A stretch of 64,000 nucleotides of DNA from Armatimonadota bacterium. GTDB lineage: Bacteria; Armatimonadota; UBA5829; DSUL01. The first letter of the stretch is position 1. Each line of letters begins with the position of its first letter. Shown here piece after piece: positions 23,598 to 30,937 of this stretch. The notes beneath the pieces were generated by a model that did no database searches, had not been told where the DNA came from, and saw nothing but the letters and a program-made list of their open reading frames with translations. The DNA lies in NCBI GenBank assembly GCA_025998755.1, contig AP024674.1:2434162-2498161 (forward strand). The letters run 5' to 3'. The translations under genes were made by a program, and so were the position numbers.

Positions 23598-24890
<1,293 letters not shown>

Positions 24891-24903
24891 TCAGATACGC
24901 CGC

Positions 24904-24932
24904 ATTGTAACCTACAGAGGCCGGAACGTCAC
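24904..24932 (-). promoter_or_regulatory. candidate promoter of the ahcY transcript
   Basis: On the minus strand GTGACG (24932-24927) and TACAAT (24909-24904) are 17 bp apart, with the -10 element about 31 bp before the TTG start. I see no room or fold for an SAH riboswitch. Confidence 0.5.
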
Positions 24933-24955
24933 AGGCGGAGAGCGGGCAGGCAACC

Positions 24956-24995
24956 GAAAGGGGCTCCGGGCTGCTCTGTGAGCCCCCGGAGCCCC
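24956..24995 (-). terminator. terminator of the PEP-CTERM gene
   Basis: On the minus strand an 11-bp stem (GGGGCTCCGGG at 24995-24985 with CCCGGAGCCCC at 24970-24960) is followed by TTTCGG. It lies 52 bp after the stop of the exported protein gene. Confidence 0.75.
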
Positions 24996-25046
24996 TCTTC
25001 GCACGGCCTGTCCCGGACCAGGCCGGGTGTCGTGAGTGAGGTCAGA

Positions 25047-26027
25047 CTATGCCCTGCGCGAGCGGCGGAGCAGTCCGGCCATTCCCAGCAGACCGCTCCC
25101 CAGAACCAGCATGCTGGCGGGTTCCGGGACGATCTCAAAGTCGTATAGCCACTCCTGGCCACCGTAGGCAATCTCCAGGCGGTCCACAACACACGTGGAG
25201 ATCTGGTTCTGATACCAGGCGTCGCCACCGTTGTTGGCCATTCCGGCCTGGAGCAGCTTGGGGGCTCCCATCTGGAATGTGAAGCTGGTGCCGGTCAGGT
25301 TCTTGCCTGCATCCACATCATCCCCGAACGGGAGGGAGTTCTCAAAGTACCAGTTGCCATAGGCGGCCTGGAACTGGCTCCAGGTCAGGCTCTGGACGGG
25401 ATCCTGATACACGCGGAACGTGCCGTGGGAATCGTCCAGCACGTTCCACTCGTTCCACTGCCAGCGATTCACGCCGTCCACCATAACCTGACCCAACTTG
25501 ACCAGTGAATGGTTGGGCTGCCATTCGACGAACCGCTTGTTGACGCCGTCAGTCAACCAGAGCTGGAGGCTGACGGGAATCTCGTTGGAATACGAGAAAG
25601 AGGTGCGAGGATAGGATGTCCAGTAAGACAGCTTCGTTATGCTACCGATGGAGACCCCCGCGAAGGTGTTGGTTCCCACCAGGCCCTTGCTCATAGGCGG
25701 CCCATTGACATCCTCGCGCGCCGTGAACAGAAGGCCCGTAGTGCCGGCGGGGAAGAACTTCCCCTCGGACGGTTTGATGTAATAAGCCTGATGACCGTAA
25801 GGACGGGCGGCCGCGTCTTTGGTGGCCGTGTAGGTTCCCTTGGTCGCAGCGGCGCGCCAAGTGACCGTCATGGTGTAGGTATCGAGCAACGGCGTATACT
25901 TGCCAAAATCCGCCGGCCCTGCTATCAGAGTATCCGTGGCGGGCCCGACCACCATCACCTCAGTCCCCTGCACTGCGGGCGCGGCAAACAGAAGGGCGAC
26001 TGCCCCAGCGACAAACAGTGCTCGCAT
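25047..26027 (-). CDS. PEP-CTERM sorted exported protein
   Basis: The protein of 326 residues has a signal peptide (MRALFVAGAVALLFAAPAVQ) and a C-terminal PEP-CTERM anchor: the VPEPA motif, a hydrophobic helix (SMLVLGSGLLGMAGLL) and a basic tail (RRSRRA). Such proteins are processed by an exosortase and placed at the cell surface; no exosortase gene is in the window. The ectodomain (LSYWTSYPRTSF, SLQLWLTDGVNKRFVEWQ, TGTSFTFQMGAPK, WLYDFEIVPEPAS) aligns by eye with that of the protein at 29152-30270. The ATG at 26027 has AGGAG 8 bp upstream; the frame extends further upstream without coding character. Confidence 0.85.
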   Translation of the reverse strand: MRALFVAGAVALLFAAPAVQGTEVMVVGPATDTLIAGPADFGKYTPLLDTYTMTVTWRAAATKGTYTATKDAAARPYGHQAYYIKPSEGKFFPAGTTGLLFTAREDVNGPPMSKGLVGTNTFAGVSIGSITKLSYWTSYPRTSFSYSNEIPVSLQLWLTDGVNKRFVEWQPNHSLVKLGQVMVDGVNRWQWNEWNVLDDSHGTFRVYQDPVQSLTWSQFQAAYGNWYFENSLPFGDDVDAGKNLTGTSFTFQMGAPKLLQAGMANNGGDAWYQNQISTCVVDRLEIAYGGQEWLYDFEIVPEPASMLVLGSGLLGMAGLLRRSRRA

Positions 26028-26142
26028 CTTCTCTTCTCCTTCTGACTCTTCTTTCCGTCTCCGGATAGCGGGTTCCGGAGTCTGTTCATCCGGCCGCGAC
26101 CCGCGTGCCCGCAGCCGGACGTCTCCAATGATACTACCTTTC

Positions 26143-26171
26143 ACGATAAGGCTTCTCACGTCCTCTGTCAA
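26143..26171 (-). promoter_or_regulatory. promoter of the PEP-CTERM gene, with adjacent inverted repeat
   Basis: On the minus strand a perfect -35 TTGACA (26171-26166) and TATCGT (26148-26143) are separated by 17 bp; the leader would be about 110 nt. A perfect inverted repeat CCGGTA-N4-TACCGG (26173-26188) abuts the -35 element and may be an operator. Confidence 0.6.
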
Positions 26172-26257
26172 CCCGGTACTTTTACCGGCTTTGTGGAGAA
26201 TGCCGGGGTTCTGCGCGGCTTGACGGCCGCACGTGGGCGGGACAGAATGCCTTTGAG

Positions 26258-27004
26258 ATGGCCAGACCTGCGCTTCTTGCCCTTATTCTGCTTCTGGTGA
26301 CCCCGGGGACACCGGCCGGCGCAGCCGATGCCGGGACCGTTTCAGAACGAGAATTCCAGAAGACGATTCAGAAGCGTGTCCATTACCGCTACCTGCTGTT
26401 CTTGCCTGCCAGCTATGCAACCGGGAAAGAAAAGCGCTTTCCGCTCATCCTGTTCCTGCACGGCGCCGGCGAGCGGCGGGGCGGGCTGGAGGTTCTCCGG
26501 GATCTCGGACCGATGGCCTACGCCGTCAAAACGAAGGATTTCCCCTTCATCGTGGCCGCTCCGAAATGTCCCGAGGGGCGCGACTGGGATCCGGACGCCC
26601 TGGGGGCGCTACTGGACGACCTGCAGGCCAGACTGCGCGTGGATCCAAAGCGCGTCTATCTGACCGGCTTCAGCATGGGCGGCGCGGGAACCTGGGAACT
26701 GGCGATGGAGCAGAGCTCCCGCTTCGCGGCTGTCGCGCCTGTGTGTGGGAGGGCCATCCCGCTTCTGGCCGGCAACCTGTGGCGGACTCCCGTGCACGCT
26801 TTCCACGGGGAAGACGACGACGTGGTGCCACTCTCCAACTCCCGGGATATGATCGAGCTCCTGCGTGGGATGGGGAACCGAGATGCCAACCTGACCGTCT
26901 TTCCCGGCGAGAAGCATGAGATCTGGGGCCGGGTATATTCAGACCCCGGACTCTATCAGTGGTTCCTGCAGCACTCCCTCCCCGACAAGCCTGCAGGCCG
27001 GTGA
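26258..27004 (+). CDS. exported alpha/beta-hydrolase (esterase/peptidase S9-like)
   Basis: The 248-residue protein has a signal peptide (MARPALLALILLLVTPGTPAG). It is an alpha/beta hydrolase of the carboxylesterase/dienelactone-hydrolase type: LILFLHGAGERRGG (oxyanion region), the nucleophile elbow GFSMGGAGTWELA, and probable catalytic Asp in HGEDDDVVPLSNS and His in GEKHEIWGRVY. The substrate is not predictable; proteins of this build hydrolyse acyl esters of plant polysaccharides in other bacteria. The last codon overlaps the GTG of the next gene (GTGA), suggesting coupled expression. Confidence 0.88.
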   Translation: MARPALLALILLLVTPGTPAGAADAGTVSEREFQKTIQKRVHYRYLLFLPASYATGKEKRFPLILFLHGAGERRGGLEVLRDLGPMAYAVKTKDFPFIVAAPKCPEGRDWDPDALGALLDDLQARLRVDPKRVYLTGFSMGGAGTWELAMEQSSRFAAVAPVCGRAIPLLAGNLWRTPVHAFHGEDDDVVPLSNSRDMIELLRGMGNRDANLTVFPGEKHEIWGRVYSDPGLYQWFLQHSLPDKPAGR

Positions 27005-27678
27005 CTCCCCGCGCCAGGCTGTCCGAAGCCATCCGCCTGTTGCGGCGGCATTACGGGAACCCTCCCGCTCCGGAGCCTGAGGATCCGCTGGATGCCCTGA
27101 TCGCCACCATCCTTTCGCAGAACACCGCTGGCGCCAACTCGTCGCGGGCGTTCTCGCGCCTGAAACAGCGCTTCCCACGTTGGGAGGACGTTCTGAAAGC
27201 TCCACTGGCAGATCTGGAAGAGGCCATCCGGCCGGGCGGTCTGGCTCCGCAAAAGGCCCCGCGCATACGCGAGATTCTGATGCACCAGTTGCGTGAACAG
27301 GGAGAACTCTCCCTGGACTTCCTGAAAGGAATGCACGACACCGCGGCGATGGAATGGTTGCAGTCCCTGCCCGGCGTTGGCCCGAAAACCGCGGCCTGCG
27401 TGCTGCTCTTCTCTCTGGGCAGAGCCGTCTATCCCGTGGACACGCACGTGCATCGGGTGGCTTTGAGGCTTGGACTCGCTCCGCAGGGCACTGCGCCGGG
27501 CAAGCTGCAGGAGATCCTGCAAAATCTTTCCAGACCGGAAGACCGGTTCGCCGGACACGTGCTGATGGTACGGCTGGGACGGGAGATATGCCGCCCGCGC
27601 AATCCCCGATGCCACTCCTGCCCACTGGGGGAGGTCTGTCCCGCCGCGGCCTGCCAAGGCGCCCGCGTTGGTGCATAA
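27001..27678 (+). CDS. endonuclease III-like DNA glycosylase with [4Fe-4S] cluster
   Basis: The 225-residue HhH-GPD glycosylase has the helix-hairpin-helix LPGVGPKTAACVLLF, with the catalytic Lys in GPKTA, and the conserved Asp in YPVDTHVHRVALRLG. The C-terminal iron-sulfur loop is C-x6-C-x2-C-x5-C (CRPRNPRCHSCPLGEVC). The N-terminal block LIATILSQNTAGANSSRAF matches the family. It would remove oxidised pyrimidines and may have lyase activity. The GTG at 27001 overlaps the stop of the esterase gene; an upstream in-frame GTG at 26959 lies inside that gene and is less likely. Confidence 0.93.
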   Translation: MTPRARLSEAIRLLRRHYGNPPAPEPEDPLDALIATILSQNTAGANSSRAFSRLKQRFPRWEDVLKAPLADLEEAIRPGGLAPQKAPRIREILMHQLREQGELSLDFLKGMHDTAAMEWLQSLPGVGPKTAACVLLFSLGRAVYPVDTHVHRVALRLGLAPQGTAPGKLQEILQNLSRPEDRFAGHVLMVRLGREICRPRNPRCHSCPLGEVCPAAACQGARVGA

Positions 27679-28549
27679 TCCGGGCGTGCAAGAGAGACGT
27701 CCCAGGTCCAGAGAGCCTTTGCCGGAATACCGTGTGCCGGGTGGGCGGCAGATCGCCTTTGAGACCCATCCCGCCGCTGCCCTTCAGTTCGTCGTCGGGG
27801 GGCTGGTTCCGGAAAATAGCGACGGTTCGGCTCCGGGGTTGCGGGCGTATCTGGATAGCTTGAGCACCCCGCTCGATCTGGGCGAAGCCATCAGCGCGCA
27901 CCTGGAACCTCTGCGCCACAGCATGGAGGAGTGGAAACGGGTGGCGCGCAGGCTGGTAAGGTCAGGACGTCCCGCACCGGCTCCCTCCGGAACCGCCGCC
28001 GCGCTGGAGCAGATCCGCTCCGCTCTGGAGCAACGGTGCCTGGAAGCGGCGACGATGCTCCGCGAAGCAGACCGAGCGCTTCGGCGCTGCGCCGCAGCAC
28101 TGCAGGAAGCACCCTACCGGCTTCACCTGGGCTTGCCCGAACCGCAGGATCCTCAGACGCTGCAGACGGCTGCCAGCGACTGGAAGGCCGCCCTTGTGTC
28201 GCTGGGGGCCTTCCGTACACCGCAGGATCCGGATCTGCCTCTCTTCTTCGCGAAGGCCGATCTCCTCGTGGAGGAAGCAGAGGAAAGCCTGCGTCACATC
28301 GGCCGTCTGGCGCGATGGCTCTGGACCAACGAGCCCGACCTCCACCGCCTGACGGAACTGCTGCAGTGGGCCTTCGACCTGCGCTGCGAATGTCTGGAGC
28401 TGGCCCCCGTCCTGGCGTGCCTGCAAACGCCGCTTGAAATCTGGCGCTCCTCCGAAAGCGCCTCCCCGGAGCCAAGCGGCGAGTCTGCAGGACAGGCCGG
28501 GGAAAAAACAGCTGCTCAGGAACCGGAAACGCCGGGTGCGTCCCCGTAG
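27671..28549 (+). CDS. hypothetical helical protein
   Basis: I do not recognise this protein of about 292 residues. It has no signal peptide or membrane helix. The middle is strongly helical with heptad-like hydrophobic spacing (LEQIRSALEQRCLEAATMLR, LLVEEAEESLRHIGRLARWL), and the N-terminal segment IAFETHPAAALQFVVGG may form a small domain. The Glu/Ser/Pro-rich tail is probably disordered. It overlaps the end of the endonuclease gene by 8 bp and converges on the CBS gene with a 34-bp 3' overlap. The start is uncertain: TTG 27668, GTG 27671 and GTG 27686 are all possible. Confidence 0.6.
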   Translation: MHNPGVQERRPRSREPLPEYRVPGGRQIAFETHPAAALQFVVGGLVPENSDGSAPGLRAYLDSLSTPLDLGEAISAHLEPLRHSMEEWKRVARRLVRSGRPAPAPSGTAAALEQIRSALEQRCLEAATMLREADRALRRCAAALQEAPYRLHLGLPEPQDPQTLQTAASDWKAALVSLGAFRTPQDPDLPLFFAKADLLVEEAEESLRHIGRLARWLWTNEPDLHRLTELLQWAFDLRCECLELAPVLACLQTPLEIWRSSESASPEPSGESAGQAGEKTAAQEPETPGASP

Positions 28550-28968
28550 ATGTATTCGTGGAGCATCTGCACGGCGGCTTCCAACTCAACCTTCTGGCTG
28601 GCCATGATGTCACCGCTGCTGATGATTCCCACCAACCGTCCCTCGTCCACCACGGGGAGGTGACGAATGCGCTTCTCGGACATGATGGCCTGGCACTGCT
28701 CCAGCTCGGTATCCGGTGTCACCACGACGCACGGTGTGGTCATCACCTCGCCGACTTTGGTGGTTGCCGGATCGCGCTGCTCGGCCACCACGCGAGTCAG
28801 GATGTCGCGTTCACTGAAGATGCCGACCACCGTCTCCCCGCGCGTAACCACCAGACACCCGATGCGCCGGTCGTTCATCAGCTTCGCGGCGTCAAGCACA
28901 GTCTGGTCGGTGTAGGCGGAAGCCACCTGGTGGCCCTTCTTGGCAAGGATGTCTCTCGCGTATCGCAT
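28516..28968 (-). CDS. CBS-domain pair protein
   Basis: The 150-residue protein consists of two CBS motifs: TVLDAAKLMNDRRIGCLVV with GIFSERDILTRVV, and ELEQCQAIMSEKRIRHLPVV with GIISSGDIMASQ. Such Bateman modules bind adenine nucleotides or SAM and report on cell energy or redox state. The protein has no attached enzyme domain, so it may act on a partner. The ATG at 28968 has GAGGAG 8 bp upstream. Confidence 0.92.
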   Translation of the reverse strand: MRYARDILAKKGHQVASAYTDQTVLDAAKLMNDRRIGCLVVTRGETVVGIFSERDILTRVVAEQRDPATTKVGEVMTTPCVVVTPDTELEQCQAIMSEKRIRHLPVVDEGRLVGIISSGDIMASQKVELEAAVQMLHEYIYGDAPGVSGS

Positions 28969-29093
28969 GGGCAACTCCTCGGATGGTCCCGGCCGGTCGG
29001 ACCGGCCAGCAGTACAGCGCTGGTTCTATGATACCCCTCCGGGATTCCTTCCCCAACCCTCCTCTGAGCGCCGGTGTCGAGCCGATGACTCCC

Positions 29094-29130
29094 AAAAGCC
29101 TCCGGCCCGGCGAAATGCGCCGGGCCGGAG
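29094..29130 (-). terminator. terminator of the exported protein gene at 29152-30270
   Basis: On the minus strand a 13-bp perfect stem (CTCCGGCCCGGCG with CGCCGGGCCGGAG, 29130-29100) and a 5-nt loop are followed by GCTTTTGG, 21 bp after the stop codon. Confidence 0.8.
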
Positions 29131-29151
29131 CAACGACAAGAAAGCGGAATG

Positions 29152-30270
29152 CTAGAAAGCGAAGCCGGACAGCACCGTCACCCGGTCTGCGGTAGTGGTC
29201 AGTTCCACCGGCTCCTTCGTGTTGTCCAGGGTCCCGGTGGCCTTTACATATTCGAAAGGGTTCACTCCGTGGTTAAACGCCCGCACCAGCACAGGCCTGC
29301 CGGAGCCGTCGTCGACGGTAAACGTGTCCGCGGTAAAGTACTGATTGAAGTCCACCTTCCCGAAGACCGTGAACACAAAGCGGTTCTTCGCGTCTGAGAT
29401 GATCGGGTCGCGGGTGGCCCGGTTGTTCAGGATGACCTCAGCCCTGGGAGCCACATCGAAATCATAGGTGGTCTCCACACCGTTCACCCCGATGGTGAAA
29501 GCGTCGATGAACGCGTCACCCCAGTAGCCCTCTTTCCACCAGGGGCCGGTCACCCGGTCCGTCACCTTTCGACCACCCCATTCGAAGTTCAGACTGCAAC
29601 CGGTAAGCGTCTGTGCCGCTCCCCACGTGTTCCCTACCGAGACAGGGGTCTTCAGCTGGGCTAGCGGGTAGCGCTGGAGTAGCTCACTCCACGTGCCTCC
29701 CCAGTCTCCCCCGTAAGGATCCCACCAAACGCCCTGGGTCATGCAGTCCACCATCTTCCAGGCCCCGTAGTCACTGAGAGGTCCGATACCGTCGTTCCTC
29801 AACTCCCCGTTTTCCCAGGTGGGAGTGCCCCACGGCATATGGATGAAGTAACGGTAGTTGATGCCGTCGCGGGTCACCAAGAGCTGCAGGTTCGGGGGCT
29901 GTGAGACACGCTCGTTTGGCGGATTGTTGCCTGTCAGTTTGGTGTAGTGCCAGTAGGTCAGCCTGGTTATGTCCCGGAGATACACCCCGTTGTAGGCATC
30001 CGTCCCCAGCCAAACCTGGCCGGGAATATCCAGCCCCCCGCCAGGCTGCATGTTATATGCGCCGGGACCCAACGGGTTGCCCGGCGGCGACGACTCCCGG
30101 AATTCTCCCTGGGCGGGGTAATTTCTCGGGTCTCCAGTGACTTTGCCATCCGCCGAGGCCGCCACCCAGCCCTGCATGTTGGACGGTGTCACCAGCACGG
30201 TATCCGCCCGGCAGTCGGCGCAGAGATCCAGCAGCAGGGCGAGACCGGCCACAAGTGCAAGCCTTAGCAT
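29152..30270 (-). CDS. exported protein, paralogue of the PEP-CTERM protein but without the anchor
   Basis: The 372-residue protein has a signal peptide (MLRLALVAGLALLLDLCADC, cleavage near CRADT). Residues about 25-285 follow the same plan as the PEP-CTERM protein at 25047-26027: VYLRDITRLTYWHYTKLTGN, LQLLVTRDGINYRYFIHMPW, TWSELLQRYPLAQL, LTGCSLNFEWGGRKV and ETTYDFDVAP. At the point where the paralogue carries VPEPA and a membrane helix, this one continues with an unrelated segment of about 85 residues (NRFVFTVFGKVDFNQYFTAD, ITVDD-like strands, ending VTVLSGFAF). It is therefore probably released or bound through another partner. The ATG has AAGGAGAGG upstream. Confidence 0.75.
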   Translation of the reverse strand: MLRLALVAGLALLLDLCADCRADTVLVTPSNMQGWVAASADGKVTGDPRNYPAQGEFRESSPPGNPLGPGAYNMQPGGGLDIPGQVWLGTDAYNGVYLRDITRLTYWHYTKLTGNNPPNERVSQPPNLQLLVTRDGINYRYFIHMPWGTPTWENGELRNDGIGPLSDYGAWKMVDCMTQGVWWDPYGGDWGGTWSELLQRYPLAQLKTPVSVGNTWGAAQTLTGCSLNFEWGGRKVTDRVTGPWWKEGYWGDAFIDAFTIGVNGVETTYDFDVAPRAEVILNNRATRDPIISDAKNRFVFTVFGKVDFNQYFTADTFTVDDGSGRPVLVRAFNHGVNPFEYVKATGTLDNTKEPVELTTTADRVTVLSGFAF

Positions 30271-30299
30271 GGTCCTCTCCTTTCCGGCAATAAGCCAGG

Positions 30300-30323
30300 A
30301 GGCTGTCTCGAGCGAGACAGCCT
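30300..30323. repeat. perfect inverted repeat in the leader of the exported protein gene
   Basis: AGGCTGTCTCG and CGAGACAGCCT pair perfectly (11 bp, 2-nt loop). The element lies between the promoter at 30338-30366 and the start at 30270, so it could be a leader hairpin or operator; on the other hand it also lies 63 bp past the nfu stop and could help end that transcript, although no T-run follows. Confidence 0.6.
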
Positions 30324-30337
30324 ATGATCCCACCTCA

Positions 30338-30366
30338 ACAATAACAGGAGCAGGACCCGCGGTCAA
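30338..30366 (-). promoter_or_regulatory. promoter of the exported protein gene
   Basis: On the minus strand TTGACC (30366-30361) and TATTGT (30343-30338) are 17 bp apart, about 68 bp upstream of the ATG. Confidence 0.55.
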
Positions 30367-30385
30367 GACATCCGTCACAGCCTCT

Positions 30386-30937
30386 TTAGATCTGCACGAC
30401 CTCTTTCACCTCGGGGATCAGCTGCCTGAGACGGTTCTCCACCCCCATCTTGAGGGTCAGCGCCGAGCTGGGACAGGAGCCGCAGGCTCCCTGCAGGCGC
30501 AAAGTGACCACTCCATCGTCGAAGCTGTAGAACTCGATATCACCCCCGTCCATCGCCACGGCTGGGCGGATGTCCCGGTCCAGCACTTCGCGGATCCGCT
30601 GCTCGATCTCGCTGGTGGCCTCATCCGGCTCTGCCGTCCTCTCGGGGAAAAGCCTTTCGCCGGATTCCAGCAGCTTGCGGATGGTATCCACTTCCGGGGC
30701 GACATCGGCCCACTGAGCCTCGGGCCGCTTGGTCAGCGAAATGAAATCCCTGCCGATCATCACGCCCGCGATGGCTTCGTTCTCAAACAGCTTCGACGCA
30801 AGAAGCGACTCTTCAGCCCGCTCCCGGCTGGTATAGTTCAGGACTCCGCGCTCCAGCAGCACCCGCCCCACGTTGAGCTTGACGGTGTTCGGGTTGGGTG
30901 TGGCTTCGGCGGATATGGTGACCACCTGTGTGCTCAT
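30386..30937 (-). CDS. Nfu-type Fe-S cluster scaffold/carrier
   Basis: The 183-residue protein has an N-terminal Nfu_N domain (ATPNPNTVKLNVGRVLLERG, LFENEAIAGVMIGRDFISLT) and a C-terminal NifU-like domain (IRPAVAMDGGDIEFYSFDDG, LQGACGSCPSSALTLKMGVE). C152 and C155 of the CxxC would hold a [4Fe-4S] cluster at a dimer interface and pass it to apo-proteins. Possible clients in this window are QueG and the endonuclease III-like enzyme. The ATG has GAGGAGG about 9 bp upstream. No isc or suf genes are adjacent. Confidence 0.93.
   Translation of the reverse strand: MSTQVVTISAEATPNPNTVKLNVGRVLLERGVLNYTSRERAEESLLASKLFENEAIAGVMIGRDFISLTKRPEAQWADVAPEVDTIRKLLESGERLFPERTAEPDEATSEIEQRIREVLDRDIRPAVAMDGGDIEFYSFDDGVVTLRLQGACGSCPSSALTLKMGVENRLRQLIPEVKEVVQI

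Follow-up and report, generated by a model that had tools for sequence, protein, structure and literature searches.

In a 64,000-nucleotide stretch of an Armatimonadota genome (contig AP024674.1, positions 2,434,162 to 2,498,161; hereafter the window), two genes, named here P1 and P2, encode proteins with homologous bodies, roughly 250 residues long, and different tails. P1 ends in a PEP-CTERM sorting tag, and P2 ends in a module with a predicted OB fold. The OB module and PEP-CTERM swap repeatedly at or near the domain boundary, and they do so on three kinds of ectodomain, two of them unrelated to that of P1 and P2. We lean somewhat towards the explanation that these proteins are Sec-exported bodies with exchangeable tails, where P1 would be processed by an exosortase and P2, lacking an anchor, would bind a glycan or another outside partner through its OB module. 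The features of both genes are collected in Table 1.

Both reading frames were found on the minus strand where the first-pass annotation of the window had placed them, and the motif order described there was recovered in P1 (LSYW, LQLWLTDG, TWSQ, LTGTS and YDFE) and in P2 (LTYW, LQLLVTRDG, TWSE, LTGCS and YDFD), with one indel in the second motif. The paralogy of the ectodomains goes beyond chance. In blastp, P1 and P2 aligned with an E-value of 7e-13 and 28% identity across 200 residues, and in reciprocal searches of the complete 3.29-Mb genome P2 retrieved P1 at E 6.6e-10 and P1 retrieved P2 at 9.8e-10. A search for further copies, which the same annotation had proposed, yielded seven places with the ectodomain profile in this genome, counting P1, P2 and one broken frame; the copies are named below by their position in kb. 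Intermediates are present among them (P2 against the 2814-kb copy, E 7e-63; the 2814-kb against the 2816-kb copy, 3e-103; P1 against the 1526-kb copy, 7e-23). The broken family member (L022, G000:C1:2976570-2977637) has one in-frame stop and is either a pseudogene or an assembly error. Orthologs in the genus mate (L141) are 93.5% identical for P2 and 67% identical for P1; from one species of this genus to the other, the PEP-CTERM copy P1 has diverged much faster than P2.

The PEP motif and membrane helix annotated at the C-terminus of P1 were recovered by PF07589 with 22.4 bits (cut-off 20.7). The 17-residue mean hydropathy of this tail reaches 1.84; in P2, it never rises above 0.71 past residue 40. 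P1 shows the traits of an exosortase substrate, namely a PEP motif with a helix and a basic end, a hydrophobic N-terminus (from hydropathy only) and an exosortase in the genome. Three PF09721 exosortase genes scored over the cut-off in the same genome, located approximately 1, 1 and 4 kb from Wza-family (exopolysaccharide) export genes. The list of PEP-CTERM matches for this genome holds 46 entries (43 over the cut-off), to which the 2816-kb copy, absent from the list, has to be added. P2 contains no PEP motif, no hydrophobic tail and no Pfam or NCBIfam family over the cut-off, and no canonical lipobox was read by eye at its N-terminus.

The tail of P2 had been described as about 85 residues unrelated to the P1 tail and free of a PEP motif. 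The lack of relation to P1 and the lack of the motif stand, but the tail is a module of 98 residues with many relatives. A structure prediction, which had been suggested for this alternative C-terminus, gave an OB fold. In the AlphaFold model of P2 (mean predicted local distance difference test score, pLDDT, of 76.8), the ten-residue blocks of the module scored 83–95, except for the last two residues. Based on VIA-align, the best match of the module was archaeal RPA14 (8aas_C; Z 11.1, 1.8 Å over 84 residues), followed by Stn1, Ten1, RMI2, RPA32 and the OB domains of aminoacyl-tRNA synthetases, and it is from this list that the fold is predicted. In the model, residues 275–372 are a separate domain with an OB fold. 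A profile search of solved structures returned nothing below E 0.15. Among 59 members of the module, weak profile matches (E <= 1) were found to RMI2 (19/59), BOF (8/59), tRNA_anti-codon (7/59) and TIGR00156 (YgiW/YdeI; 5/59); P2's own copy matched none of the four, and the P2 module alone gave two Pfam matches, both far under the cut-offs. Three motifs are shared by the 59 members: N-[KR], which precedes the barrel; F-x-x-[WF]-G-[KR]-V; and F-x-[VLI]-D-D-G-S-G.

For the P2 ectodomain (residues 22–265), the model aligned with promeprin beta (4gwm; Z 9.7, 146 residues, 3.8 Å) and with the xylan-binding CBM4-2 (2y64; Z 9.2, 142 residues, 3.3 Å), low-confidence loops included. This suggests a jelly-roll that is possibly glycan-binding, and since the OB domain fills most of the VIA-align rows, the ectodomain could have another fold. 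At E <= 1, Pfam gave no family in P2 and PEP-CTERM alone in P1, with no CBM4 or MAM profile match. The structure model of P1 was poor (pLDDT 48.3) and was left out of the fold search.

The exchange of the two tails was observed in four cases. The neighbouring copies at 2814 kb (OB) and 2816 kb (PEP-CTERM, PF07589 over the cut-off) belong to the P1/P2 family and are 55% identical. The neighbours at 2323 and 2324 kb, whose bodies are dissimilar to P1 or P2, share 78.8% DNA identity over 608 nucleotides, ending approximately 20 nucleotides before the tail; one has a PEP-CTERM tail and the other an OB tail, with PF07589 over the cut-off in the 2323-kb gene, and both members are kept in the genus mate. 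G017, a genome in a different family of the class, has FGE-sulfatase-like genes in tandem that are 66% identical up to the tail, which is OB in one and PEP-CTERM in the other, the latter slightly under the Pfam cut-off (20.0 vs. 20.7 bits). Finally, P1 with its PEP-CTERM tail and the OB-tailed 1526-kb copy adjoin in the ectodomain tree.

This tree of 24 ectodomains contains two changes between OB and PEP-CTERM, a number forced by its starred branches (bootstrap range 2–2). Apart from its own ortholog, the nearest relative of P1 is the 1526-kb copy (support 93/92), and P2 lies across a 98/96 branch from P1; P1 and P2 are therefore not sisters. The 2816-kb copy groups with the 2814-kb copy (90/86). 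The annotated view of two paralogs, one with an exosortase-type anchor and one without, holds on the evidence of PF07589, the three exosortases, hydropathy and blastp, but in the tree they do not form a plain pair of duplicates. The candidate scenario of recent duplicates with one altered anchor was ruled out in the same way, with a caveat for long branches. In three genomes of the same order outside the genus (G010, G011 and G019), all 11 completely seen family members have an OB end, three of them by weak scores; two more members are cut inside the OB module, and PEP-CTERM occurs in none. PEP-CTERM copies of the P1/P2 family were found in G000 and G001 only. Since the same-order relatives are OB-ended and the tree needs two changes, the simplest reading of the sequences would be an OB-tailed ancestor in which PEP-CTERM replaced the module at least twice, with the reservation that branches are long and the PEP-tailed copies come from two genomes. 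The tree was built without the broken 2977-kb copy, the weak or truncated matches of G022 and G003, three further matches and locus L201 of G011, which is interrupted. Its rows G019a and G019g received the OB label on the strength of a module that is truncated where the stretch ends.

Across the phylum, the module is restricted to one class. Profile A3 (59 members, E <= 1e-6, at most 17 candidates scored per genome), run on 291 phylum genomes, detected it in 24/28 genomes of this Armatimonadota class and in 0/263 elsewhere. In 65 of the 71 copies examined, no more than 30 residues separate the module from the stop codon; the 71 copies were taken from the window, stretches of the same genome and 60 stretches picked among the stronger listed matches, and are not a random sample. 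The carriers include subtilase, N-acetylmuramoyl-alanine amidase, C39 peptidase, LamG, PKD, Calx-beta, FGE-sulfatase-like, laminin-B and RCC1 proteins. Judged by these annotated domains, such a range seems as expected for an accessory extracellular module. An NCBIfam scan of ten module carriers gave no match.

The class genomes without the module by A3 (G008, G009, G013 and G025) are exactly those without exosortase and PEP-CTERM; with the smaller profile A2, G027 was a fifth genome without a match. The Wza family is kept in 28/28 class genomes. The four genomes have 1, 0, 0 and 0 fn3 matches, respectively, and five exosortase-positive genomes also have 0. Because these four genomes represent two genera and exosortase-positive genomes can likewise have no fn3 match, the joint loss of module and exosortase was dropped as evidence.

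In the genome of P1 and P2, four strong OB copies and 35 weaker places were counted (39 in total, E <= 1). Of the weaker places (L027–L052), 26 were viewed and 24 scored, one being the family member at 1171 kb. The other 23 are large proteins that, judging from their sequences, bear an OB tail of a second kind: 17/23 have two OB matches, a DRSSGIRV-type followed by a DDGSG-type, and in 22/23 the last match lies within approximately 80 residues of the stop, L046 being the exception. Their carriers include glucoamylase and fn3/phosphatase-N-like proteins.

OB places in this genome lie within 5 kb of a PEP-CTERM place in 11 of 39 cases against 5.0 expected for random positions (as many or more in a fraction 0.009 of random draws), and three of the four strong copies do so against 0.5 expected (0.008). 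This comparison included the weak OB places and 47 PEP-CTERM places, among them the hand-added 2816-kb copy. Such proximity is explained equally well if surface genes cluster and duplicate in tandem. At L226, L229, L230, L231 and L232, a short PEP-CTERM gene and a large OB-tailed gene lie on the same strand with gaps of approximately 50–280 bp. Weak ectodomain similarity to the neighbour was found in one of these five pairs only. The PEP-CTERM protein at L226 has an X25/pullulanase-type domain.

From what was computed, namely the homology of the bodies, the kinds of tail, the predicted OB fold, the exchange of tails and the spread of the module through the class, we infer the following route for P1 and P2. 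Both proteins would be exported by Sec and would have a common jelly-roll, probably glycan-binding, body. As proposed for the PEP-CTERM family in general, the tail of P1 would keep the protein in the inner membrane until cleavage by an exosortase, after which P1 may pass to the surface or into the exopolysaccharide. P2 would have no anchor, and its OB module may keep the protein non-covalently on a glycan or another extracellular partner; at minimum, the module would replace a sorting tag in a protein leaving the cell. The combination of ectodomain and OB module would be the older architecture, with the PEP-CTERM versions probably derived from it at least twice.

Several observations weigh against this route. 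The placement of P1 (93/92) concerns a long branch, a feature about which the tree program issued a warning; the G017 and 2323/2324-kb pairs give no direction of change. In Foldseek against the PDB, P2 had no match at E <= 0.001, the best being Stn1 at 2.2e-3, and the closest OB structures bind nucleic acid, while the fold does not reveal the ligand. Outside the genome of P1 and P2, a PEP-CTERM frame was seen within 5 kb of at least 4/66 module genes, with many contigs ending near; of these four pairs, two are from the genus mate and one, in G002, is without ectodomain similarity. Moreover, 6/71 module copies lie more than 30 residues from the C-terminus (five clearly internal, and one weak match about 50 residues off), and in genome G022 (L197, L202, L207 and L217) weak C-terminal ectodomain matches follow a weak OB match upstream, an apparently reversed order. 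Because of the internal copies and the position of OB before the ectodomain in G022, the module is to be regarded as a domain and not as a strict C-terminal tag.

The internal copies show that the module can sit elsewhere, and for this reason a second explanation is not far behind. The OB module may only add another ligand-binding domain to exoproteins that are free; P2 would then simply be released, and for targeting the exchange would mean no more than that the PEP-CTERM anchor was lost or gained. The varied exoenzyme-like carriers agree with this, no cognate machinery for the module was found, and the 0–1 fn3 matches in the four module-less class genomes would point to a general loss of extracellular proteins. 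Against it, OB and PEP-CTERM alternate at one place in three unrelated kinds of ectodomain, and the great majority of the copies (65/71) are C-terminal. We consider this explanation possible, with a smaller share of our confidence than exchangeable tails on exported bodies. More tentatively, and in our estimate rather unlikely, the module may be an exosortase-independent, class-specific targeting or retention domain, that is, an address tag rivalling PEP-CTERM on the same cargo. If true, swapping one tail for the other could direct the products of duplicated genes to a second location outside the cell.

It is improbable that the OB module is specialised for C-terminal sorting or secretion and is read by a machinery of its own, similar to the type IX C-terminal domains. 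The C-terminal bias, the many unrelated cargoes, the exchange with a known sorting signal and the restriction to one class would fit such a role. SprA is the type IX translocon, and the C-terminal domains of this system have an Ig-like fold. SprA (TIGR04189) was over the cut-off in 0/28 class genomes, a negative without a positive control since 0/14 controls matched, and one weak match was seen in G020 (24.2 bits against a cut-off of 200). The fold predicted for the module is RPA-like and not Ig-like, and the internal copies also argue against a dedicated sorting domain; a strict C-terminal sorting tag is weakened by them as well. That the likeness of P1 and P2 is a convergence of a common beta-sandwich, in which case they would not be paralogs, could appeal to their low identity of 28% but is hardly credible against the pairwise E-value of 7e-13 and the intermediates in the same genome.

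Table 1. Coordinates of P1, P2 and associated features in the window.
Feature	Coordinates	Strand	Basis or composition
P1	25047..26027	(-)	Signal peptide + ectodomain + PEP-CTERM, 326 aa
P1 signal peptide, approx. residues 1-21	25965..26027	(-)	Hydropathy only
P1 ectodomain, homologous to P2 ectodomain	25131..25964	(-)	Sequence comparison
P1 PEP-CTERM: VPEP + hydrophobic helix + RRSRRA	25050..25130	(-)	PF07589, residues 300-322
P2	29152..30270	(-)	Signal peptide + ectodomain + OB-fold module, 372 aa
P2 signal peptide, approx. residues 1-23	30202..30270	(-)	Hydropathy only
P2 ectodomain, possibly jelly-roll, CBM4- and MAM-like	29449..30201	(-)	Model with low-confidence loops
P2 C-terminal OB-fold module (predicted), residues 275-372	29155..29448	(-)	Predicted model + profile
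Promoter-like site TTGACA-17-TATCGT before P1	26143..26171	(-)	Consensus only
Promoter-like site TTGACC-17-TATTGT before P2	30338..30366	(-)	Consensus; kept in genus mate
Terminator-like hairpin after P1	24960..24995	(-)	By eye, folded; absent from terminator listing
Terminator-like hairpin after P2	29100..29130	(-)	By eye, folded; absent from terminator listing
Perfect 5'-leader hairpin GCTGTCTC-NNNN-GAGACAGC before P2	30302..30321	(-)	Sequence match

Each gene had been credited with its own promoter and terminator. Promoter-like sites do precede both genes (seven such sites were found in the region against 0.8 expected) and a strong hairpin follows each stop, but the terminator listing contains neither hairpin. 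The start ATG of P1 comes after GGAGAAGAGAAG. The leader hairpin of P2 is kept in the genus mate with a changed loop and is the sole match in the window at up to two mismatches; among 224 loci, exact matches were found in eight, all at the same place or its ortholog. An Rfam scan of positions 24500–30800 was empty. This hairpin could act in mRNA stability or in regulation.

Little literature was found on surface sorting in Armatimonadota: none on Armatimonadota with exosortase, and only LuxI/LuxR homologs for Armatimonadetes with PEP-CTERM. The exchange hints at a second way of placing proteins outside the cell. As the exchange of tag for domain is repeated, it provides natural matched pairs, with the same body and a different tail, for testing the effect of the tail on destination. 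In addition, the OB module offers an annotation handle for many large hypothetical exoproteins of the class.

Among known systems, the PEP-CTERM/exosortase (EpsH) system resembles the present one in the PF07589 tails of P1 and of the 2816-kb and 2323-kb copies and in the exosortases near exopolysaccharide export genes; passages of Haft 2006 (PMC1569441) likewise describe PEP-CTERM on proteins whose homologs lack it. The P2 kind differs in having a globular OB domain (predicted) of 98 residues instead of the tag. The module is similar to RPA14, Stn1/Ten1, RMI2 and BOF/YgiW in predicted fold and weak profile matches, but differs from known OB domains in its fusion to proteins with signal-peptide-like starts, its own N-[KR] and F-x-[VLI]-D-D-G-S-G motifs and its occurrence in one class. 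The ectodomain model aligns with CBM4-2 and MAM (meprin) over approximately 145 residues, but at 13% identity and 3.3–3.8 Å, and without a Pfam match. An OB-fold domain as an alternative to a sorting tag was not found in the literature searched, whose coverage leaves out most subscription journals, and the OB-fold passages of the lipocone paper (PMC12419801) concern other systems. Alternative tails on one family are already known: in sections of Haft 2011 (PMC3237569), the members of a family differ in bearing GlyGly-CTERM, LPXTG or PEP-CTERM, and a tag replaces a longer alternative sequence in one panel. The principle of a single body with differing C-terminal tails is the same. However, the alternatives in those sections are short tags or an undefined region, whereas here the alternative is a folded, class-restricted domain with a predicted OB fold, which, within the literature searched, is the new part, and paralogs with both tails share one genome.

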